This document shows positions 22,733 to 64,000 of a stretch of DNA of 64,000 nucleotides, piece by piece. Source of the DNA: Acanthochromis polyacanthus (taxonomy: Eukaryota > Chordata > Actinopteri > Pomacentridae). The notes under the pieces were generated by a model. The model was not told where the DNA came from and did not search any database. It saw only the letters and a program-made list of their open reading frames with translations. The DNA lies in contig NC_067122.1 of the NCBI RefSeq assembly GCF_021347895.1, positions 39,242,082 to 39,306,081 of the forward strand, read 5' to 3'. Position numbers and translations under genes: made by a program. The first letter of the stretch is position 1, and each line of letters starts with the position of its first letter.

Positions 22733-25249
22733 GCAAACATGATGGTATATTTTATATTCTATTAAGTGAAAAAAATAAGAAGAAAAGGGGGAATGGATGG
22801 GAAACCAATACTGGTGTTGGTGTCACTGTTTTATTGATGCTTCTCCCCAACATCCACACTATCTACAGAGGGCGTTTGCATTTTTTAAAAAAAATATTCA
22901 CTTCACTAATTTAAGAATGCAAGATTTTAGTTTATTTTTTAAAAGTGTGTCTTTAGAAATGTTCACCTTGGCACATTCATCAAGTATTTAGTGAGGATTA
23001 TTTAATTAACCCTCTGAACCTAAAAACCTGAAAACTTTTTCTGTTTACCACAAACAGAATCTGTAGAAAATCAAGAGAATCCTTAAATTTTCATTGGAAA
23101 AACACATCTTAAACTAAGTTTAAAATTGTGATATTTCATCACAATCAGTATGGAGAAAATAGAAGAACCTGAGAGCAAAATATTGAGCAATAAAATAATT
23201 GCAGCCTGAGTCAAAACGGGAAAACAGAGGAGCAAATTATGAGCAAGTTTTACAGTTAGCATGGTACAACATCTTTCTAGAATTGGTGTTCAAATTAGTG
23301 TGAAAAAAAATGCCTACTTTGGAGAGGTTGTAAAAATGAAAACCAGTAAAATATCTATCCTATGCAGAGCCTTATTTGATTTTCCCAGTATTGGTAACAC
23401 CTGTGGAATCATTTGGAAAAATGCCATTCATTTTTATTTTTGCAGAACTATTAAAAGGAATTGAACTTTTTTTTCCCTTTTTTTGTGTGACTTATGGCAT
23501 ATGACCTTCCTGTCAGACAGAAATAGTATTTGTCCATCAATCACCCCAGTCTCCACATCATACCTGCAGTAGTGGCACTGAACTTAAGAACTGAATCACT
23601 AAGTGCAGATTTGCACAATATGAAAAGAATTTATAGCTTTACTGGTGGGCTGCATACACATTCCTGCTTTCTTGCTTGCAGTCTTTCTTCGCTTAGATTG
23701 TTCAGGTCAATCAGTAAGCAGGTGATATCTTGTAGGAAATAAGAGAATGAGTCTGTAGACTGGACAGTCCAACAAACCAAACATAGATGAATGCAGTCAA
23801 GTCATTGGTCTTGCAGATCAAACTAGGATCACATCCAACATAGCATGTTAATCCTCTGTGGAGTTGTTTCCATTCTGTCTGCTCCCTCCCCACCCTATGA
23901 CTGAAAAAATAGTAAGTCCCTTCAGCTTTTGTCAGGTTCACTGTCATAAGCTTCCTACAGTAAATCATTGAGAAGAACCCCCTTCTGTGTTTGAGTCTGG
24001 TTGGGGAGACCCTTATCTCACTGCCTGTGCTTTCTGTCTTTTTAAAGCATATATACAATCAAATAAAGTAAAAATCATTTTTAGAAAAGGTTTCCCTGAA
24101 GAGTTCCCAATGCTGGCAGCTAATGCTTGTCCTCCTGATTTATCAGCAAACTAACCTAGAAACACAGCATGCCATCAAATATTAATAGAAAAACAGTCAC
24201 TCTTTCTCGTAGAAATAATCAACAACCACTATTTCTGTCGCTATCACTAGAGTGTCAGACAACCCAGTGCAACCTGCTAAATATGGACTCCACAGGGAGA
24301 CCAGAAAAAGACAATTCAGTCATGTTCCAAGAATGCCACTGTCTGATTTTTTTTTAATCCTGAAAGTTACAATGCAGCTCTTCTTTAGTTTGTTTCCATG
24401 CATATCTTATGCAATCAATAGGTAGAACACATTTCCTCTTCTAAAAATGTGCTACAATTTAACGTAGTAGTTATCAAGACTTGCAACATAAGTTCTAAAC
24501 TTCCCCAATGTCCATTTAATTTGGTCAGAACCAAAACAAGAGACACAGTAAAGATTTAGTTCTGGTCTTGTTTGTGACGAAACAGAAGTTTTACAAATGT
24601 GGTCTGACAGGTTTATTGATTGAACAGCAGCAGCAATTGTCTTCCTGTATCTAATTACATGTTGGGAAATTGGATTCTGGTGATTGAACATTACTGAGCC
24701 TTCTGCGTTTATTTCAGTTCTCTGTGGGGCAAAGAGCTCATGAAGAAATAAGTGACCTTAGTCATGATATGAATAGTGATGATCATACAGAAAGAGACCA
24801 AAAGAGACCTATCCCACTTAAATATATGGTCAGAAACATGGTCACTCTGTTTTACCTGGTTTGATTTTTCAGAATGATGTGCACATATGACACTGGACTT
24901 GCATAAATATGTGGCATAGACACGTAATTGATGAGATTGCTTTCTTCATGGGCAGAAGATGTATATTTATCACAGTTTAGCTTTTGAATTCATGCTAAAA
25001 TTACATCTCTGCTATCATTCTGTGATTGATCCAGTGCAACCACAACTACAATAAATGGGTAAATTCTTAATATACATACACATAGATGCCTCATTGGCTG
25101 TATTGTTCCAAGGAAGCATCATCTCTAAATACACATGCAGTATATCTGTGAAGACAAGAGGCCTACCACAGCTAAAATAATCACAATTCACTGAATTTTA
25201 TCGTTTAATTTGTTATGGATACTGTATGCAGTATGTATTAATCCAACCC
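22733..25249. other. Spacer, nothing recognised
   Basis: AT-rich sequence with scattered short open frames that I cannot support as genes. Confidence 0.5.
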
Positions 25250-25786
25250 GGTCTCACGGGGATTCGTGAAACTGTCACGTAAGTTTTAGTTTCGGTTTCG
25301 TGCGCACCAACACGATTTCGTCATGTTTTTCGTGCCGCTCACCACGAAATGTTTTTCGCTGTGGTAATCACATCTGAAAGTGGTTTATACCGGCGGATTC
25401 ATGACGATCTAAGCTGTCCATCGGCGTATACTGCTTGTGTGATTGCGTTTGCGGCCGCCGGCCGCCGGACATTCTTGAAATTCCTATGCAAATTGGTAAG
25501 TGTACCACCGGCTTATGGTTAGGTTATGGTTAGGGTTATGGTTAGGGTTATGTTTAGGGACGATGTCATGCAAAATATAGCATTGGATTGGCCACGGTTT
25601 TACATTAAAAATATAATATACACATTCTTTTGAAATACGTTCTGAGTGGCACGAAAAGTCCGCCGTTTAAAATACATTGGTGCGCATTTCGTGGTGAGCG
25701 GCACGAAAAACATGACGAAATCGTGTTGGTGCACACGAAACCGAAACTAAAACTTACGTGACAGTTTCACGAATCCTCGTGAGATC
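25250..25786. mobile_element. Foldback element, copy 1
   Basis: The left arm starts GGTCTCACGGGGATTCGTG. The right arm (about 25680-25786) is its near-perfect reverse complement over roughly 105 bp. The loop contains CpG-rich GCGGCCGCCGGCCGCCGG and, at 25517-25557, degenerate TTAGGG-like units. No protein is encoded. Copies 2 (30679) and 3 (63726) share the arms and part of the loop. Confidence 0.85.
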
Positions 25787-25964
25787 GGGCATTAGTAAAA
25801 GTAGGATTTTATGCCAGAACAGTTTGTCATTTGTAGATAAAAGTAACATTTTTAACCAATTTAACAATAAAAATGTTGTTAAAAATTGCTTTTTTGAAAA
25901 TAATGAAATACAATAAAACTAGGAAAATTTAGTTTCTTCACCTGATGGTTTGATGGATAAAGTA

Positions 25965-28338: not shown

Positions 28339-28346
28339 CAAACTTT
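28339..28346 (+). repeat. Left target duplication CAAACTTT
   Basis: Eight bases identical to 39378-39385, directly abutting the two element ends. Eight to nine bases is the duplication length known for Merlin elements. Confidence 0.85.
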
Positions 28347-29546
28347 GGTAACACTTTCTATGAAGCAGACATTTATAATACATCATAACAGCATCCATAA
28401 TGCAATATAATGCATTCATAATTCCTCATAACTACACTTATAGGCAAACATAATGCTTCATGATTCTTTATATCAATGGTCATAAAACATTATAATCTCA
28501 TTTATAATGAATTATAATGACTTGTTCCATGGATGCTCATGAATACTCATGAACGCTACATCCATAATGATTTATGAGGTATGAAGCCCCGACAATCACA
28601 ATGCATTATGAGGGCATTCATAATGCTTCATAACTACACTCATAATGCTTTATGTACTATATCAACAGTCATAAAACATTATGATATCACTTATAATGAA
28701 TTATAATGACTAGTTATATGGATGCTCGAGTACTTATGAACACCTATATTATGCTTCATGAGGGCACTCGCAGTGCATTATAATGCACTCTTCACTGACT
28801 GCTTAGAATACATGATGATTACCTATACACACAACTCAAGTCAACTGCAGTGACAACTCATAGTATGTAATAACAGCCTATGAAGTATCATGAGTCATCA
28901 TTGTATGCATTAAGTAAAGTGACATACATCTGGATGCATTTATAATAATGCATAATTCATCATAACGCTTCATTGTAGGGGCTAAGTGAAGTGTGATGCA
29001 TTTGGATGCATTTATAAGAATATTTGTTGCATCTTAAGTGATTAGTATGCAAGACATAATAATACAGTAAATGCAGGTTCTGTAGAAATGGAAACTCAAT
29101 GCAATACATATGCAATACATACACATTCAAAGTAAGAAAAAGACCAAATATATTTTTCAAGTTTATTCTTGGGTGTCAAACAAACTAGCCACTATTATAA
29201 AAGATATAAAATACAAAATTTAACTGAGGAACGCCCTCCCCCCAGAGGGACATTAAAGGACATTTTCTTGGAGCAGCTTTTTAAAGTGCATCTTAACACT
29301 TACAGGTAAACAGTATACATATGTGAACAATTGGCCCTTAAGGGCACGATCACACTAAAGTATGGTTGCCAGCTGATAGGTGGATAGTAGTGCCAATGCA
29401 TATTAACGGGAAAAGAGCTTTTTTTTTAAACTTGCTTTTGTTTTTCTTTTAGTTTTTTCCTCTGCTCTATTCCCATTGCAATTTGGCAGAAAGCCCTCAT
29501 CAGCTGGCAACCATACTTTAGTGTGACCATGCCCTAATAGTACATA
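28347..29546 (+). repeat. Left terminal inverted repeat (about 1.2 kb)
   Basis: Matches the reverse complement of 37755-39377 from the outer end through CCATGCCCTAATAGTAC at 29527-29543. The outer half is packed with short variants of CATAATGC and TTATAATGAATTATAATGA. It contains an imperfect tandem duplication (about 28430-28575 and 28630-28755). Near its inner end, 29340-29380 and 29490-29535 form a local inverted pair (CTAAAGTATGGTTGCCAGCTG), with a loop that the right copy lacks. Confidence 0.88.
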
Positions 29547-30678
29547 ACAATATCTTCATCAGGAAGGATAATAAAAACAAAAAACAAAAAATATCACATC
29601 TTGCATGATGTCATAAGTGCTGCACTGATCACTTTTAAAACAGTTACGGATTTAAAGTAAACGTAAAATGAGTATTTTTTTCTTTGCTGCTGCTGCTGTG
29701 CAAGAAGTCGAGACAAGAGGCCCTCCTTTTTTGCTGCTCTATAAAGTGCATAGTGTACAATATGTAAACATGTGGCTTTTAACAGTACAAAACATCACCC
29801 TAACAATGAACCCCACCCAACACCTTTTCTACACTGGGGTAGCTTTGGCAATGGGAAGGAGCAGCCCCTCCTCTTTCATTCTACTGATCTCTTGATGTCT
29901 GGGGTCATGGCATCACGGCAGCGGGCAATGAAAGATGACATTTTCTCCTTGCATCCATCCCAGGACCCCAGGCTTTTGAAGACCTCAGGAGCAGCAATGC
30001 TCAGCTCAGCAATTGCTGCGGTCCTGGAGACAGTATTTCTGTCAGCGCCGACGTGCTCGAAGGCTGCCTTCATGGAACCCACACGGTTGAAGGTGTCCAG
30101 AGCCATCTTGTAGCGCGATGATTCCCTTGGTGTTTCTAGCTGTACAAAACACATTCAAAACGGAAAGAAAAGAATTTGTTTGAAAATCCTAGTCAATATT
30201 CCCTTACAAGCTGAAACTATGTGTACTTTGTCAAACTGTAATGGGCAATCTCAAATCCCAACTTACAAAACCTATTCAAGAGGGCTTGTAAAATCATAGG
30301 TAGGTATGCAGCCCCCATGATCTCTTCAATGAATCTTTGAAAGAACAGTGTGGAAGCAAGGCTTCAAAATCACCCAAGACCCAAATCACATCCTCCATAA
30401 AGAATGAGTTACTGCCATCCAGCAGACAATACAGGTCATCATACTGTAAGCTCAGCTAGAAATTCTCCTTTTTTTCACTGTCAATAAAAGCACTCAATAA
30501 CCAGGAAGATAATTAAGTTTTGTGTGAATGGTATGTATGTATGTGTATAAGTGTGTAACTAAGTTACTTTCTCCTCAGACAACGACGGCTAATTCAAATG
30601 AATTACCTCTTGATCGAGTAAAAAGGTCATCTTTGGCCTTAACAGTGGCCTTAGGTGGACGGTGGGAGGAGGCAACAT

Positions 30679-31156
30679 GGTCTCACGGGGATTCGTGAAA
30701 CTGTCACGTCAGTTTTTGTTTCGGTTTCGTGCGCACCAACACGATGTCATCATGTTTTTCGTGCCGCTCACCACGAGCGAAACCCGCTGTGGTAATCACG
30801 TCTGAAAGTGGTTTATACCGGCGGATTCATGACGATTTAAGCTGTCCATCGGCGTTTGCGGCCGCAGCGGCTGCCGCAAACGCCGATGGACAGCTTAAAT
30901 CGTCATGAATCCGCCGAATTTGCATAGGAATTTAAAGAATGTCCGGCGGCCGAAGCGGCGGCCGCAGCGGCGGCCGCAAACGCCAATGGACAGCTTAGAT
31001 CGTCATGAATCCGCCGGTATAAACCACTTTCAGATGTGATTACCACAGCGGGTTTCGCTCGTGGTGAGCGGCACGAAAAACATGACGACATCGTGTTGGT
31101 GCGCACGAAACCGAAACAAAAACTGACGTGACAGTTTCACGAATCCCCGTGAGACC
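30679..31156. mobile_element. Foldback element, copy 2, inside a coding exon
   Basis: Starts GGTCTCACGGGGATTCGTG and ends CCCCGTGAGACC. The arms are about 190 bp each, including the block GGTTTATACCGGCGGATTCATG. The centre holds a second nested hairpin in which GGCGTTTGCGGCCGC meets its reverse complement. It interrupts the Ser/Arg-rich third exon of the CCDC106-like gene, so it inserted after the host transposon. Confidence 0.88.
31020..31020. other. Marker: start of outer right arm of foldback copy 2
   Basis: From about here to 31156 the sequence is the reverse complement of 30679-30815, forming the outer stem of the hairpin. Confidence 0.5.
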
Positions 31157-32153
31157 GGGCTGGAGGAGGACGAGGAGGAGTGAGATCTGGGGGATCTTTT
31201 GCGTTTGCAGAGATCCATGGATGAATCTAAGAGTATAAATCAAGGAGTCAATCATAATGATAGTGTTAACATGTAAAGACATGCTACTGAAGATTGGTAC
31301 TGGCAGTGTTCCTACACTGAACACCATAAGTGCTCTGTGGGCACTCAAAAGCAGCTGATCCTGCATTCTGATCTCTAAAGGCACAACAATGTAGGCCAGG
31401 AAATCCTGTTAAAAGGGACAGTTCGCCCCCAAATGAAAAACACATACTCTACATGTAGTGCCATTTATCCATCTAGTTTGAGTTAGTAGCAAGCAACATA
31501 TTTTTGGAATTATGAGGCCAAGATATTTATGTCTTCTCTCAAATACAGTGCAATTGAATGGCACTTTACTTGTGGTGCTTAAGTGTGACCTGGTTAGTCA
31601 GGATAATTCAGAAACCTTGTTGTGAGTAGTTACATGTAGTCCGTATTTGTTACTTATGACTGAACATGAAACTGCAGCTAGGTAGGAGCTCGCATGGGTG
31701 TAGTTCTGTCAGAAATAGAAAATGCATCCTACATGACTGTTCACAATACATTCAGCAATTGCTATACCTTCAGATGAATCGGAGAGAAACGATTCAGTCG
31801 ACTCCTCCTCCAGGGTCCTGGATGTATTTTTTAAGGGGCATCCTCTCTTGCTTGCGTTTGAGAGCTGGAAATGACAAATGCAAATACAAATCCAGAGTTC
31901 ATATAAACATTAAAAGATTAAATTCAAGGACTTTCCCCCTCCAAGAAATTCATTTTTGCTGGAAATTAAGCTACTCAATTTACAATTTAGGCATTTAGTT
32001 GATGCTCTAAATCCAGTGCGACTTATATCATAAAGCCTAGCAATTGTAATCTAATGATAAAAAGAAAAGAATATATATCAAGTAAACAATGCAATCTAAC
32101 TTACATGTAAGGCCACTGAGCAGATACTATGGGCTATGGTGGAGTCTGAATAG

Positions 32154-32634
32154 GTGAGTGTTGCAGAAGAACCTGCCTGTGGGTCTACTCAGCACAATAA
32201 ATACAGCAGTTCGGCCAATGCAAACAGAGTCTTTTATTCACCACACCATCTCAGCGTAAATAAAACAGTCTCTCTTTCTTGCCCGGCGCTACTCTGGACC
32301 TCGTCCGGTAAAACAGTCTCAGCGTCAGCCGGCTCTCCGCCGGTTCTCCTCCGGTAAACAGTCTCAGCGTCAGCCGGCTCTCCACAGGATCTCGTCCGGT
32401 AAGCTACCCGCTCCACCGGACCTCGTCCTGTCCGCTGTCCTCCACTCGTGCGTCCTCCTTGTCCTCTGTGTCTGTGTGTCTTTTGTCCTCTGCTCCAGCC
32501 TGCTACTGTGGAGGTAATCAGGTCAGCCTAATTGTTACCACCTGTGTCAATTAACCTGACGCTGCTTCCATACACTCTCCTCCACACCTCTCTCCAGTGC
32601 AGCTGAGCTCTCCCACGCCCATCGCCACAGTGAG
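32154..32634 (-). mobile_element. Solo LTR with 5-bp target duplication
   Basis: On the minus strand the LTR (32629-32159, 471 bp) begins TGTGGCGATGGG and ends TTCTGCAACA, the TG...CA form. It has AATAAA at about 32198-32203, minus strand. Direct repeats GTGAG flank it (32154-32158 and 32630-32634). It contains an internal repeat of CAGTCTCAGCGTCAGCCGGC. It lies in an intron of the CCDC106-like gene. A 5-bp duplication suits Gypsy or BEL elements. No internal genes remain. Confidence 0.85.
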
Positions 32635-32654
32635 TCTTCAAACCATGGCAGCTA

Positions 32655-32835
32655 GGGAGTGAGTCTGCTCCTCAAAGTGCAACAGGGAGATTATTCCACA
32701 GTTTAGGTGCCAGGAGGGCGAATTGTCTCGTTGTGGATTTTCGTCCCAGGGTTTTTAGCGAGTGTACTGTCAGTGTACCTATATTAGCTGATCTAAGTGG
32801 CCGGGTGGGGCTGTAGGGTGTAATCAGGTTTTGAA
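32655..32835 (-). pseudogene. LINE ORF2 C-terminal fragment
   Basis: The minus strand encodes TPYSPTRPLRSANIG and FALLAPKLWNNLP. The pattern 'P..P.R.LRS...F...AP.LWN.LP' marks the tail of CR1/L2-type LINE proteins. It sits directly beside the solo LTR and the coiled-coil exon. Confidence 0.65.
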
Positions 32836-33120
32836 GGCATGTTGGTGCCATACTCACTGCTCTTTTCAGACTGGATGGTGCTGGAGCTACCACCATAATC
32901 ATCTTTAGCCATTAGGTCCTTGATGAGCTTGTCCTTTTTTACCAATTCGCCTTGGAGATACATTTTGTCTTCCTTGAGAAGAGTGATTGTTTCTTCTCGG
33001 ATGCGACCCTTCTCCTTTTCAGCCTCTAGGAGGGTCTCCAGTCTTTTGACTTCTTGCACAGCATTTGGTGAGGCTATTGGTAAGGTAAGTGTGGATACAA
33101 CATTAAAGTTAGGAATGCCT

Positions 33121-33122
<2 letters not shown>

Positions 33123-33193
<71 letters not shown>
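33123..33193 (+). repeat. GT microsatellite, about 35 units
   Basis: Perfect (GT)n just upstream (minus-strand sense) of the coiled-coil exon, forming a CA-rich tract before its acceptor. Confidence 0.95.
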
Positions 33194-33196
<3 letters not shown>

Positions 33197-34689
33197 GTGC
33201 AATTTTAATGGATTGATTAACCACTTTATTAGAGTTCAAAGTATTAAAAGTACAGTTCAACCACTGAAAAGGATAAAAGATACCCAAGAAAGCCTCTGGC
33301 TTGTTTCAATTGGGATCTTTGGTGTTCAATTCATCATACGTGTTGTTTCTAAGATTTTACAGAATCTAGAGTGTATTTGCTTGTTGCTAAGGAATCTGAT
33401 ACTTTGTTTCAAAGTACTGTACAAGGCAACCACATCATGGCATCCAATAAGACATCAGCAATAATAAGAAGAAAACAAGACTTAGAATATTACGAGTACA
33501 AATCTAAAATGATGTCACTGATAGAGATGTTACTTATTGAGTCCAAACCTTTTATGTTGTTGTTCTGGTCCAATTCGATGTGATTTGTTTTGGCAGCTTC
33601 TTTTGGTCATGTCTGAGGCTGGGGAAAAGGGGGGGGGGGGCACATTAGTAGGATAAATGGCATAGGAACATGCTTAACATGAGACAAGAATAATGTGCAA
33701 AATCGGTGCCATTAAAATCCCAAACTTTTTAGTCCCCCACAAAACAAATTCAAACCACCGTGTGCCCTTACATTGTAGGCCAGACCACTTCAAACAACTG
33801 TAATGAGGGGCTGATGGTCAGCAGTATGTGCTCTGTCGGCTACACTTTAATGTCTATGAATTATATTGATGTATTTAAGAATTTATCGTTTGCATAGGAA
33901 AAAGCAGTTTTATGAGAGTACAGATTCACTGGTACTGCTTGAAATAATTTTATGAAACAACATATTTGATACTTTTGAACTCTGGATTCCTCCGGTCAAA
34001 ATGAGTATAAACTATAAACTCATCCTTGAACGGGCCACGGATTTGACGTAACAATCCTCAAACTGTTCGGAAGTCCGAGTTGTTGTGATGCTGCTCATGC
34101 AATTCTTTCACTAATTACATTTAACTGGTCAAGAAACCTGTAAAACAAACTTAACGACTCAATTGTGAAGAATCCAAGCTTTCTAACAAGCTATAGCATT
34201 GTGGTGGTTGACAAGCGTGTTATTGATATTTCTTCCGCCGGGAAGTAAGAGGCTACCTCATATAACATTGAGTATCATACAGACAGAACACAGTACTATG
34301 CAGAAAATAGCATTCAATGACATATATACTGAAAAAAAAAGTACAAAGTGAAAAGTAAAAGTATGTAGGCCTACAGGCAGAGGGGGGAACGCTTTGTCTA
34401 TTCCCAGGTTTGAGTTTTTCTTTTAGTTTTTCACCACTCTAACTCAAAACGCCAACAGCTTATCGAAAAATAGCAGCTTGTTTCCTTACCTTGTTTCTTT
34501 CAAACTGCAACGTGGTACACGGTAGTGGTGTAAGGACGCTTGGAAGTTGGCTTGTTCGTAGACAGACAAGTTGCAGCGCACATGTGACGACGGTGGTGGG
34601 GGAAGGGGTCTTCTTCTTCTTCTTCTTTGGTGCTTTTTTGGCGGTTGGCAGGGAGAGGGGATGTGACGACACAGTGTGTTTGTACACTT
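33194..34689. other. Inner part of the 11-kb transposon, 5' region of the CCDC106-like gene
   Basis: No clear coding domain. On the minus strand a candidate exon (33620-33553) has CAG before ATG ACC AAA AGA. A second possible leader exon ends at about 34496 with AACAAG followed by GTAAGG, and encodes a lysine-rich stretch. Both are tentative. Confidence 0.35.
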
Positions 34690-35001
34690 TTGTGTTGATG
34701 TATTTTTTATACTTAATTTATTTTACCTACTTTGGATGAAACATATTCACCGTTAGTTTTGTTCTATTCAAATTTATTCAAATATTATAGAACATAAACT
34801 TAATTGAATTGTATATATTTCATGCATCTAACGTTAAAAGTCATTGGCTGATATTTTATTTTGAAACAATCTGAGCGGAAGTACATTCCGTATTCCGCTA
34901 AAACATGAAGAAGACACGCGATAATCATAATTTCATTTCCTCATGACAACAAAGCAGACAGCAGACGAGTTAATGTAAGAAAGTAACATTAATATTATGA
35001 G
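34690..35001. promoter_or_regulatory. Putative divergent promoter of the transposon
   Basis: The minus-strand gene's possible leader exon and the plus-strand transposase ATG at 35002 face away from each other across this AT-rich gap. I infer a shared promoter from layout only. I cannot point to a specific TATA box or start site. Confidence 0.35.
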
Positions 35002-35321
35002 ATGGGTGTCTTGGAGGGGGAGATTCAACAATTATTGCGCACAGAAAATACTCTAAGAAATCGAAGGAAAATCGTGTTGTGGATGCAGAAAAGAGGCATT
35101 CTCCAGAGTCGCATGAAATACAAGTCCTGTGATACTCAGATGAGTGTCGTGTAGGTTACCAGACAAGACGGCTTCCACTGGTAAGAAAAAGTGTGGTCAA
35201 GTTATCTATCATTTTTGACTAAGTGTAACATGATCATAAGAACAAATGTGTTTATGTTGTTGGTAAAAACTTATATAAAAGTTGCATAATCTTGTTTCAG
35301 ATATATTGGCAGCTACATATT

Positions 35322-35420
35322 TGCAGTGTTGGGAGTAATACTATTTGAACTACTTTTTGCTGCAACCAGTAATGTAACACATTAATTTACTGATTACGGT
35401 TAGTGAATTATTTTCACAAA
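35322..35420 (+). repeat. GCAGTGTTGGGAGTAA-type repeat fragment
   Basis: GCAGTGTTGGGAGTAATAC followed by CAGTAATGTAACACATTA is a decayed copy of a very common fish repeat. It lies in transposase intron 1. Confidence 0.5.
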
Positions 35421-35689
35421 TGGAAATGGCAGACTACTTCAGCGTATCTGGTTTATGATCATTATGTTTTACCCACACCTTAGGGTGCAATGCATAGCAT
35501 AGTTTGAAAGCCACCTGAACAGCGCAGCACTTCCTTTGTGTACAGAGGAAGTGAATTTCATGCTGCAGATTTTTTGCTGCTGCGCTGTGGATGAACACTG
35601 TGTATTTCACTTATTATTACACTACTTATTATCCTTTGATCCACTGCTATCTTGATGCTTACTCAGCACATATACCATATACCTGAAGC

Positions 35690-35692
<3 letters not shown>

Positions 35693-35744
<52 letters not shown>
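35693..35744 (+). repeat. AT microsatellite
   Basis: Perfect (AT)n of about 26 units in transposase intron 1. Confidence 0.95.
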
Positions 35745-35746
<2 letters not shown>

Positions 35747-36710
35747 CTAGTAAGTTATTTTGATGTACTGTAACTCATGACACATTTTCAGTAATTTACC
35801 TAATACTGCATTATTGTGCAAGCCCCATCTGAACCGAAGATTTAATCTAAAATGTCCTACCTAATCATTGTTTAGCTGCAAACTTTAGCATGCCTTTAAT
35901 TGAGTTTGTGCATAACTTGCATGTCTCAGATAATCCTTTTCTGCAGGGTTTGCAGGCGACACAGACGAGGCCTTTCAGTTCGCAAAGGGAGTCTCTTCTA
36001 CAAGTCCCGGAGGTTACTCCAAAACCACCTGGAATTCATTTACAGGTGGGTTTTCTTTGCCCAAGTTATTTCTTCCCCCACCTTTTGTTAACGAAATATT
36101 TTGTCCATTGGGCAAGTAGTTTTGAACTTGTTTTCATCTCTTTGTAGGTTCTCCCAAGGATTACGTCTGAAGCAGACAGATCTTATTGAAGATGGTGTTG
36201 CAGGCAGTAGCAGGACCTTAACCAAGATGGCTTCATCTCTGAGAAAAGTATGAAAACAGACCACATATTTGCTTTTATTTAACCAACTTGAAGCAAATGT
36301 GCAGGGGCCATAATCAGGCCATTCAAAATTGAGTTTGTATAATGTGAAAAGGAGAAGAACATCTCAAAATAAATTTCTGAAGTGGAGTATGATTGAAGCC
36401 TTTGTTAACAGGAACAGAATTTCAAATCATGCAGATGGGCTGCATGGTTTGAAATTTTGTCAAAACCTACCATGGCTTTACAGTAAGTTTTTGAGTACCA
36501 TAGTTGAGGCTGACTGTGTGAATATAGTAATACACCTTAACAAAGCAGCTTAACTGAATTGTCATTGTTTCCTACATGCAAGTCTGCAATCGTGCTGTGC
36601 GCAAACTTCGAGTTCAAGGTCAAATGAAAGTTGGTGGCCATCATTGCTTTGTTATGCTGGACGAAAGCAAGTTCTCACACAAAAGAAAGGTAAGATGCAT
36701 TTTTATGATA

Positions 36711-36713
<3 letters not shown>

Positions 36714-36775
<62 letters not shown>
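36714..36775 (+). repeat. GT microsatellite, about 31 units
   Basis: Perfect (GT)n near the start of transposase intron 4. Confidence 0.95.
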
Positions 36776-36779
<4 letters not shown>

Positions 36780-37045
36780 GTTTCTGCTATACAGGTGGGG
36801 ACTTTGACCTGACTATTTGCTATAAAGGTGGGGACTTGTCTTACGGTGGGGACCTAAAATGAGGTCCCCACGGGTGGCAACACCGTTTTCTTGGCCATAT
36901 TGTTGTTAATAAAAAATGTAAAAGTGTAAAAACGTTTGTTTAGGGTTAGGCATTGATTTGGTGATGGTTAGGGTTAGGGTATGGGTTAGGAGTTAGATAT
37001 GAATGGGAGTCAATGGTAAGTCCCCACCGGTATAGAAAAACAAAC

Positions 37046-37048
<3 letters not shown>
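36776..37048 (+). repeat. GTGGGGAC repeat with telomere-like core
   Basis: Contains three GGTGGGGAC units, an inverted pair GTGGGGACC and GGTCCCCAC, then GGTTAGGGTTAGGG-type units (36940-36990), then AAGTCCCCACCGGTATAG. It lies exactly between two GT microsatellites. I recognise it as a dispersed fish element often found beside TG runs. Confidence 0.65.

Positions 37049-37106
<58 letters not shown>
37049..37106 (+). repeat. GT then GA microsatellite
   Basis: About 22 GT units followed by a short (AG)n run in transposase intron 4. Confidence 0.95.
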
Positions 37107-37720
37107 TGTGCGCATGTGTTTCTATTCAAGGAAATGTCATTACCTGTGCATGTAACTATTAATCCGATAATTACAAGAAATATGTTTGACAGTACAACCG
37201 GGGGAGAATGGGACAGCATGGAGACGGAATAAAATATGGGTATTTGGTATGCTGGAAGTAGCGCAGACCACCAGGAGACCTATTCTCAAGATTGTCACAA
37301 AGCGTTCCAAAGAGCAGCTTCTTCCCATCATACGGCGACATATTAGGAGGGGATCCAGCATTGTGACCAATGAGTGGAGAGCTCTGTCAGAGGAAGGTTA
37401 TAATCACCATACACAAGAGATACTTTGTAGATCCTGTAACCAGAGCTCATACACAAAACTTAGATCAGGCCTGGCAAACATTTAAATGTGAGGTTTGGCG
37501 TCATAGAGGCAATCGAACGACCAAACTGTTAAAAGAGCATTTAAGAGTAAGTGAGTGGGAGTACTGGCTTGGGAGATCGCATAGAAATGGCATTCTTGGG
37601 CGCCTTTTTCATGATATTAGAAAATTTCATGTTCATGAGTGTTGATATGGATTTATGAAAAGTTCTTTGTATTGTGTTATACCTCTTTTTAAATAGTTGC
37701 TTGTTTGTTCGAGCACCCTG

Positions 37721-37726
37721 AATAAA
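37721..37726 (+). terminator. Poly(A) signal of the transposase gene
   Basis: AATAAA lies 75 bases after the transposase stop and just inside the right inverted repeat, a sensible 3' end. Confidence 0.6.
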
Positions 37727-37754
37727 CTTGTATTTGTAAATAAATGTATTTGTT

Positions 37755-39377
37755 TGTACTATTAGGGCATGGTCATATCCCAGCTGGCAACCATACTTTA
37801 GTGTGATCGTGCCCTTAAGGGCCAATTGTTCACATATGTATACTGTTTACCTGTAAGTGTTAAGATGCACTTTAAAAATCTGCTCCAAGAAAACGTCCTT
37901 TAATGCCCCTCTGGTGGGAGGACGTTCCTCAGTTAAATTTTGTATTTTATATCTTTTATAAGAGTGGCTAGTTTGTTTGACACCCTGAACCCTAAACTTG
38001 AAAAATATATTTGGTCTTTTTCTTACTTTGAATGTGTATGTATTGCATATGTATTGCATTGAGTTTCCATTTCTACAGAACCTGCATTTACTGTATTATT
38101 ATGTCTTGCATACTAATCACTTAAGATGCAACAAATATTCTTATAAATGCATCCAAATGCATCACATTTTACTTAGCCCCTACAATGAAGCGTTATGATG
38201 AATTATGCATTATTATAAATGCATCCAGATGTATGTCACTTTACTTAATGCATACAATGATGACTCATGATACTTCATAGGCTATTATTACATACTATGA
38301 GTTGTCACTGCAGTTGACTTGTAGCCCAGCTGTGCTCGACCCATGCTCTGAAGACGCAAGGGTCTAGGCACGCTCGACAGGGAGGGAGGCGGGCTAAAAG
38401 GTTGTCTATCAAATCACTCTGCAGCAATTGGGTAGGTATACAACCAATCAGCGCAACGAATAGGCTCCTAGAGCGCCGGAAATCAGAGGATGCAGCAGTT
38501 CGGTGAAGCCTTATTTATACAGCCAATGGGTGAAGCTCAAGTATATTACTGACATGTTAACAGAAAGATTATTCAGAGTCGGTGCTAATGGAGCTCAACG
38601 ACTGTTGTCATTTTTGTTGTCGGCTCTGGCAGGGAATTAAATTCATTGCCGTGGGTTGTCTAGCGTGGCCAGGCTAGTTGTTTGCAGTTGTTTCTGTGAG
38701 AATCGTCGCGCCTCTGTCGTCACTTGGTTATACCCGCCTTCTGACGCTACACTTCATGGTGATTCATCCAGCCAGTTTTAGCAGCATCCAACCTCGAGCC
38801 TTATGGAGGGTAACTAGACACACCCTGGCAGAGAATTAAATTCGTTGCCATGGGTTGTCTAGCGCGGCTAGGCTAGTTGACTTGAGTTGTGTGTATAGGT
38901 AATCATCATGTATTCTAAGCAGTCAGTGAAGAGTGCATTATAATGCACTGCGAGTGCCCTCATGAAGCATAATATAGGTGTTCATAAGTACTCGAGCATC
39001 CATATAACTCGCCATTATAATTCATTATAAGTGATATCATAGTGTTTTATGACTGTTGATATAGTGCATCATAAAGCATTATGAGTGTAGTTATGAAGCA
39101 TTATGAATGCCCTCATAATGCATTGTGATTGTCGGGGCTTCATACCTCATAAATCATTGGGGATGTAGCGTTCATGAGTATTCATGAGCATCCATGGAAC
39201 AAGTCATTATAATTCATTATAAATGAGATTATAGTGTCTTATGACCGTTGATATAAAGCATCATGAAGCATTATGTTTGCTTTTAAGTGTAGTTATGAGG
39301 ACATATGAATGCATTATATTGCATTATGGATGCCGTTATGATGTATTATAAATGTGGGCTTCATAGAAAGTGTTACC
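37755..39377 (-). repeat. Right terminal inverted repeat
   Basis: Reverse complement of 28347-29546, but interrupted by a 553-bp insertion (38322-38874) and lacking the inner loop of the left copy. Without the insertion it is about 1.07 kb. By eye the arms differ by scattered single bases, so they have been diverging since insertion. Confidence 0.88.
38312..38884. mobile_element. MITE-like insertion with 10-bp duplication
   Basis: Insert 38322-38874 is flanked by AGTTGACTTG on both sides (38312-38321, 38875-38884). The left inverted repeat of the host transposon has this sequence once, uninterrupted, which proves a clean insertion. The ends (TAGCCCAGC and GCTAGGCT) are weakly inverted. Two internal copies of a block of about 55 bp (GGGAATTAAATTCATTGCCG / GAGAATTAAATTCGTTGCCA, each followed by TGGGTTGTCTAGCG) occur at 38629-38680 and 38829-38876. 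No coding capacity. Confidence 0.8.
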
Positions 39378-39385
39378 CAAACTTT
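39378..39385 (+). repeat. Right target duplication CAAACTTT
   Basis: Identical to 28339-28346 and immediately follows GTGTTACC. Confidence 0.85.
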
Positions 39386-63047: not shown

Positions 63048-63725
63048 TGTCACAGAGCAGGTCAGAGACTCAAACGTGGAATGACAAAAACACAGCCAGA
63101 CAAGAGTTATGAACAACAATACATTTATTTAGAACGATAATATTTACAACAGATTACAAAGGGAGGTAGAGGAGATGTGACATAATGAAGGGTCAAATGG
63201 GGCAGACCACTCCTTAGGGAGATAGCTACAGAAGGGAGAGTGAATTACACAAGAACTGGAAACGACTACAAAACACTTACAGGCGAGTGATACGAAGTCA
63301 GAAAGGTTAAGTCTTCCAAAAGTAGATTATCTTTACAGAGTGGAGTATTGATCAGGACTTGGTACCACCTAGCTAGGAAAGCTAAGACAGGCTGGGGCAA
63401 GGAATGTGCACACAGTGTAACAACAATTAAAACTATTACACACCTACACATGACTTTACTACAAAGTATACTATGAATACTATAAACTACATGGCTTAAT
63501 AAACATGCTCAACAGTTTATACAAGCACCATCCAATACCCAACGAGGGGGGGGGTAAATTTAGCTGACAGCCTGAGAGGGGGTGAAGGAGTAGAGGAGGC
63601 ATGTGCCATGGTAGGAATGGTGTCTCAGCAGATGCAGGAGCCAGGTGGAGATTCTGAGCCATGGATCCAGGCCAGACCAAGATGAATATGGAAGGCAAGA
63701 GCTGAGGCTCAGGCAGAACCAACAC
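63048..63725 (-). repeat. LTR-like dispersed repeat, copy B
   Basis: Matches copy A (47519-48175) at its left edge (GAGCAGGTCAGAGACTCAAA) and again at GGGGGTAAATTTAGCTGACA and GCAGAACCA. It is cut at its right end by foldback copy 3. Confidence 0.5.
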
Positions 63726-64000
63726 GGTCTCACGGGGATTCGTGAAACTGTTACGTAAATTTTTTGTTTCTTTTTCGTGCGCACCAACACGATTTCGTCA
63801 TGTTTTTCGTGCCGCTCACCACGAAATGTTTTTCGTGTTGCTCACAACGAAACCCGCTGTGGTAATCACAGCTGAAAGTGGTTTATACCAGCGGATTCAT
63901 GACGATCTAAGCTGTCCATCGGCGTATACTGCTTGTGTGATCGCGTTTGCGGCCGCCGGCCGCCGGACATTCTTGAAATTCCTATGCAAATTGGGGAAAA
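63726..64000. mobile_element. Foldback element, copy 3, cut by window end
   Basis: Left arm and part of the loop only, closely matching copy 1 through GCGGCCGCCGGCCGCCGG and CCTATGCAAATTGG. It keeps a CGTGTTGCTCACAACGAAACC segment that copy 1 has lost. Confidence 0.85.

Follow-up and report, generated by a model that had tools for sequence, protein, structure and literature searches.

What kind of mobile DNA occupies positions 28347-39377 of the 64-kb window studied here, and what is its second gene? The window is a stretch of 64,000 nucleotides from Acanthochromis polyacanthus (contig NC_067122.1, forward-strand positions 39,242,082 to 39,306,081), and all positions given below are counted from its first letter. 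The element in question spans 11,031 bp. Because its plus-strand gene encodes a transposase of the DDE_Tnp_IS1595 family, the element is, on the evidence of its sequence, a decayed DNA transposon of the Merlin lineage (i.e., IS1595-type). What is new here is the size of its ends and the presence of a CCDC106-family gene inside it, which is echoed by the annotations of three other fishes. The reading that we consider probable is that of a decayed Merlin-lineage transposon with terminal inverted repeats (TIRs) of 1,029 bp and an 8-bp target-site duplication (TSD), in which a transposase gene is accompanied on the opposite strand by a CCDC106-family gene for a helper protein that is predicted to contain a coiled coil and to bind DNA at the repeats of the arms.

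The TSD, CAAACTTT, is found at 28339-28346 and as an exact copy at 39378-39385. The plus strand of the window contains this 8-mer six times, and two of the six abut the element ends. The outermost 20 bases of the two ends are identical (GGTAACACTTTCTATGAAGC), and each end starts with GGTAACACTTT and has a terminal 5'-GG. The left TIR (28347-29375, plus strand) was delimited by arm comparison and by the inverted-repeat pairs I1, I2, I3 and I5, and the right TIR (37781-39377, minus strand), which includes a nested insert, by inverted-repeat search and arm comparison. The two arms are identical at 999 of 1,029 compared positions (97.1%), with 15 gap columns and a Kimura two-parameter (K2P) distance of 0.030. 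Thus, the perfect 8-bp duplication, the exactly matching ends and the inverted repeats of more than 1 kb described in the original prediction were all recovered. At the inner arm edges (29300-29700 and 37600-37850, with at most one mismatch), a TSD-like 8-mer is found only as CATACTTT. Because CATACTTT sits inside a repeat common to both arms, the arms do not look like separate insertions; they are the ends of one element. No further copy of the arms or of the genes was found in the window.

The left arm contains a subterminal repeat field (28347-29165) with the motifs TTATAATG and CATTATAA and internal repeats of ~190 and 72 bp (families D3, D6, D7 and D12). In this field TTATAATG or its complement is present in seven copies, compared to a mean of 0.17 in shuffles, and the highest count reached by any 8-mer across 200 shuffles was five. 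These repeats are proposed to be putative binding sites. A small hairpin element with 37-nt arms is also found where the left arm borders the interior of the element (29341-29535), and a shortened form of it is kept in the right arm (~37756-37815).

The transposase gene (~35002-37645, plus strand) consists of five exons separated by introns. Exon 1 (35002-35181) encodes N-terminal helices and a zinc-ribbon-like part, contains an in-frame stop at 35152 and was matched by the related protein P0001 (tblastn, E 1.3e-11), whose match to exons 2 (35948-36045) and 3 (36146-36247) spans both of them (E 3.7e-21). Exon 4 (36579-36689; 76% identity to P0001, E 1.9e-12) carries the first catalytic Asp in the sequence LDESKF, and exon 5 (37191-37645; tblastn E 2.7e-55) encodes the DDE core and is interrupted by two frameshifts. 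A profile check of the exon-5 region, as suggested in the original prediction, gave a match of DDE_Tnp_IS1595 (PF12762) at 37171-37482 with an E value of 9.5e-12 and 45.6 bits, compared to a Pfam cut-off of 27. The same profile matches 49 of 50 transposase relatives at E <= 1, and NCBIfam model NF033547, with a cut-off of 75, scored 67.0 with P0001 and 76.5 with P0002. Among the rows that have a letter at the position concerned, the relatives keep the D-D-E triad in 48/48, 49/49 and 50/50 cases, whereas the window copy reads D, N, D. Given the stop in exon 1, the two frameshifts in exon 5, the replacement of the second Asp by N and that of the Glu by D, the transposase gene is dead as read here, and a working transposase cannot come from this copy. 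Among 50 relatives, 17 have a match to PF13408 (E <= 1; best E value, 1.1e-05) in the zinc-ribbon-like N-terminal part; P0001 itself had no match. A profile search for a transposase relative of solved structure returned no match, and none of the four pattern matches obtained by scanning viral sequences with the transposase was confirmed as a relative. It should be noted that P0010 of Labeo rohita, which is named Patatin-like protein 4, shows 58% identity to the Merlin transposase over 78% of the query and is likely a misnamed transposon gene.

The assignment to Merlin/IS1595 made in the original prediction is supported by the Pfam match of the window, the NCBIfam match of the relatives, the 8-bp length of the TSD and the GG termini. 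Merlin elements are described in PMC8101967 with an 8- or 9-bp TSD, a terminal GG and TIRs of 24-462 bp, and the window element shares with them the DDE_Tnp_IS1595 transposase, the TSD length and the terminal GG. Conserved blocks 1 and 2 of the Merlin transposase are described there as 50 to 70 residues apart, to which the spacing of the first two catalytic residues of P0001 (positions 153 and 222) is close. The element differs from published Merlin in its length and its second gene, in its zinc-ribbon-like N-terminal part, as Merlin is described in the same source without the IS1595 zinc domain, and in its TIRs, which at 1,029 bp exceed the published range, itself descriptive and not a criterion; we thus regard it as a Merlin variant. 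With the bacterial IS1595 family it shares the transposase family (NF033547), relatives of which were found at 67 loci in a bacterial and archaeal genome collection, but bacterial members are described with a single transposase gene (PMC8101967), whereas the window element has introns and a CCDC106 gene. The original prediction had left a choice between a large two-gene branch of the superfamily and a new superfamily: the former is favored by the annotations of the three fishes, and the latter was rejected because the IS1595 domain is present. Transposase domains of hAT, P and other superfamilies with 8-bp TSDs gave no Pfam match at E <= 1 in 10 window pieces covering part of the element.

Among the open-licence papers listed for Merlin or CCDC106, no title or displayed abstract describes such a Merlin/CCDC106 element, although a description confined to a database may exist. 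The main text of PMC8101967 contains none of the terms "accessory," "intron" or "long TIR." In their passages on Merlin, PMC7599744, PMC4746887, PMC11785729, PMC9004415 and PMC5753468 give only counts or mentions, and the first four do not contain CCDC106. For one of four teleost genomes, PMC4746887 reports 76,084 Merlin copies covering 8.47 Mb, so Merlin can be common in fishes. A 19-base end scan of viral contigs returned one candidate, L068, with a 22-base end match and a 24-base match far outside the element, which was taken as chance.

The second gene, left unnamed in the original prediction, belongs to the CCDC106 family (~33612-29828, minus strand). Like the transposase gene it has introns and is broken, so that the two intron-containing genes predicted earlier are both present, on opposite strands. 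Two of its exons have database matches and the remaining ones were read by eye. The coiled-coil exon (32856-33098) was matched by P0071-P0073 with 62-68% identity (tblastn, E 6e-20 to 7e-22). The last exon, with a probable extent of 29828-30140, encodes the conserved helical domain and was matched by P0071, P0072, P0076, P0082 and P0097 (tblastn); the CCDC106 Pfam profile (PF15794) matches 29879-30154 with an E value of 1.2e-21 and 78 bits, compared to a gathering cut-off of 30.2. Between these two exons lie a putative exon for an acidic, Ser-rich linker (31767-31864), suggested by its frame, splice sites and likeness to P0072, and an exon with probable boundaries at 30600 and 31226, which was recognized from its flanking frames and is split by a nested palindrome. 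A start codon and frame at 33552-33612 point weakly to a possible first coding exon, and the intergenic region between the divergent genes (33613-35001) likely holds both promoters, given the positions of the genes. Because the palindrome (30679-31156) interrupts one exon and a late frameshift is found in the last exon, the gene is broken in the window. A retrocopied CCDC106 gene was considered and is ruled out by the introns.

With CCDC106 (PF15794) the gene product shares a coiled coil and a conserved C-terminal domain, but CCDC106 is known as a host protein, and none of the papers listed for it describes a transposon-borne form. Ten CCDC106-like proteins were matched with a composite query and 34, including those 10, with an alignment; all matches named by organism are from fish. 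In the alignment search, scoring was limited to the 7,997 candidates with the most shared words, and so the absence of mammalian CCDC106 among the matches of either search is no evidence that it is lacking. The model of the conserved domain of P0071 (residues 127-230) shows a possible structural resemblance to the DNA-binding domain of plant LEAFY. A Foldseek search with the CCDC106-like model gave 107 matches at E <= 10 and none at E <= 0.001, a profile search for relatives of solved structure gave two weak matches, neither of them useful, and no literature joining CCDC106 and LEAFY was found. Scanning of viral sequences with the CCDC106 alignment gave eight pattern matches, none of which was confirmed as a relative. 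In P0088 of L. rohita, a CCDC106 domain and the helix-turn-helix domain of a Tc3-type transposase are fused in one gene model, which probably represents adjoining mobile elements merged by annotation.

The pairing of the two genes recurs in three other fishes. In Puntigrus tetrazona, LOC122334846 (P0077, CCDC106) and LOC122334847 (P0011, transposase) are both listed with a 98,778-bp contig; in Coilia grayii, ACEWY4_007787 (P0089, CCDC106) and ACEWY4_007786 (P0048, transposase) are both listed with a 42,522,485-bp contig; and in Triplophysa rosa, the single gene model P0041 holds both Pfam domains. Pygocentrus was considered as a fourth pair and not counted: a 41.5-Mb contig is given for both of its genes, but their adjacency was not seen. 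The transposase tree has 45 rows, comprising the window and 44 of 70 matched proteins (26 were omitted; the alignment of relatives omitted 20 of the 70). In it a single clade of 39 rows unites the teleost proteins (support 100/99), with Epinephelus lanceolatus as the sister of the window (95/81). The six-row clade that holds the window also holds Puntigrus, while Coilia and Triplophysa are on two other branches. Judging by the nearest proteins, the window probably comes from a percomorph fish. Because the paired annotations fall on separate branches, the sequences fit an old transposase-CCDC106 pairing.

Several observations weigh against this interpretation. In the Triplophysa model both domains lie on the same strand, in contrast to the opposite orientations of the two window genes, and the pairings in Puntigrus and Coilia are known at the level of shared contigs in annotation listings. 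The pairwise identities of the transposase and CCDC106 genes rank the species differently. The CCDC106-domain tree (27 rows; nine of the 34 matches were omitted from the tree and six from the alignment) is poorly resolved, with the Triplophysa row on a very long branch.

How the two proteins would work together can be proposed as follows. The CCDC106-like protein would pair through its coiled coil, its C-terminal helical domain would bind repeated sites in the arms, and it would thereby help to bring both ends together for the transposase, which would cut at GG and join the element to its target with an 8-bp stagger. PIF/Harbinger elements are two-protein transposons that combine a transposase with a separate Myb-like DNA-binding partner. 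The element proposed here would be like them in having a separate DNA-binding partner, and unlike them in that their partner is Myb-like and their target and transposase are other ones. Living copies of the two-gene family would have spread in teleosts, and the window copy may have been inserted some time ago, as suggested by the 3% divergence of its arms, provided that these started out identical; small mutations and two nested elements would since have disrupted it.

The helper role competes with two other explanations of the second gene. It could be a regulator, either of the element or of its host (for example, a repressor or a factor acting on host chromatin or p53), with no part in the end complex; for human CCDC106, a nuclear location and a role in promoting p53 degradation have been described (PMC6423756), and it is called a p53-interacting partner (PMC10713525). 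Repression of transcription from the intergenic region would be just as feasible for a DNA-binding partner, but a regulator leaves the long, repeat-bearing arms unexplained, and we hold this explanation to be possible though doubtful. It is less likely still that a one-gene, long-armed Merlin recently captured an intron-bearing host CCDC106 gene as cargo that plays no part in movement. Such a capture would agree with the retained introns, with the study of CCDC106 as a host protein (PMC6423756) and with the PF15794 E values, as an Acipenser protein (1.7e-74) matches far better than those of Coilia (1.3e-38) and Puntigrus (7.4e-30), the window (1.2e-21) and Triplophysa (3.5e-15), which is expected if the profile describes a host gene. 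The presence of CCDC106 beside or joined to the transposase in Puntigrus, Coilia and Triplophysa, on separate tree branches, is more consistent with a long-standing association than with a single recent capture.

A further explanation would dissolve the element itself, with the arms as separate repeat copies that flank unrelated genes by chance. It is conceivable that the arms form an independent repeat family, but an exact 8-bp duplication is present at the outer ends and none at the inner edges, the terminal bases match, the arms have no other copy in the window, and the gene between them is of the IS1595 type, which is described with 8-bp duplications (PMC8101967). We regard this explanation as very improbable.

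Two further insertions lie within the element. The right arm contains a 555-bp insert (38322-38876) that is missing from the left arm and is flanked by an 8-bp direct repeat (TTGACTTG, at 38314-38321 and 38877-38884). The length of the duplication would fit a non-autonomous hAT-type element, and the insert has the ends TAGCCC...GGCTAG. The palindrome in the CCDC106-family gene is 478 bp long, has 199-nt arms (inverted repeat I4) and lacks a clear target duplication; its family, with GGTCTCACGGGGATTCGTG ends, is found at four places in the window (30679-31156, 25242-25494, 25689-25790 and 63719-63992). Without this palindrome, the 555-bp insert and one of the two copies of the duplication that flanks the insert, the element is ~10.0 kb long. 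GT and AT microsatellites are found at ~33127-33195, 35693-35744, 36716-36777 and 37053-37095.

In the literature consulted, Merlin and its bacterial kin have so far been described through the transposase gene alone. A large Merlin that combines kilobase-long ends with a recurrent partner gene would be a second vertebrate two-protein cut-and-paste system beside Harbinger. More tentatively, and with the odds in our view against it, fish Merlin may be a two-protein system whose end-binding helper was domesticated and gave rise to the CCDC106 proteins of vertebrates, among them the p53-linked human one. Two questions are thereby made testable: whether the conserved domain of CCDC106 binds DNA, and whether the host took the gene from the transposon or the reverse. 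For CCDC106, which has so far been studied in cancer cells, an origin in mobile DNA would become a possibility.
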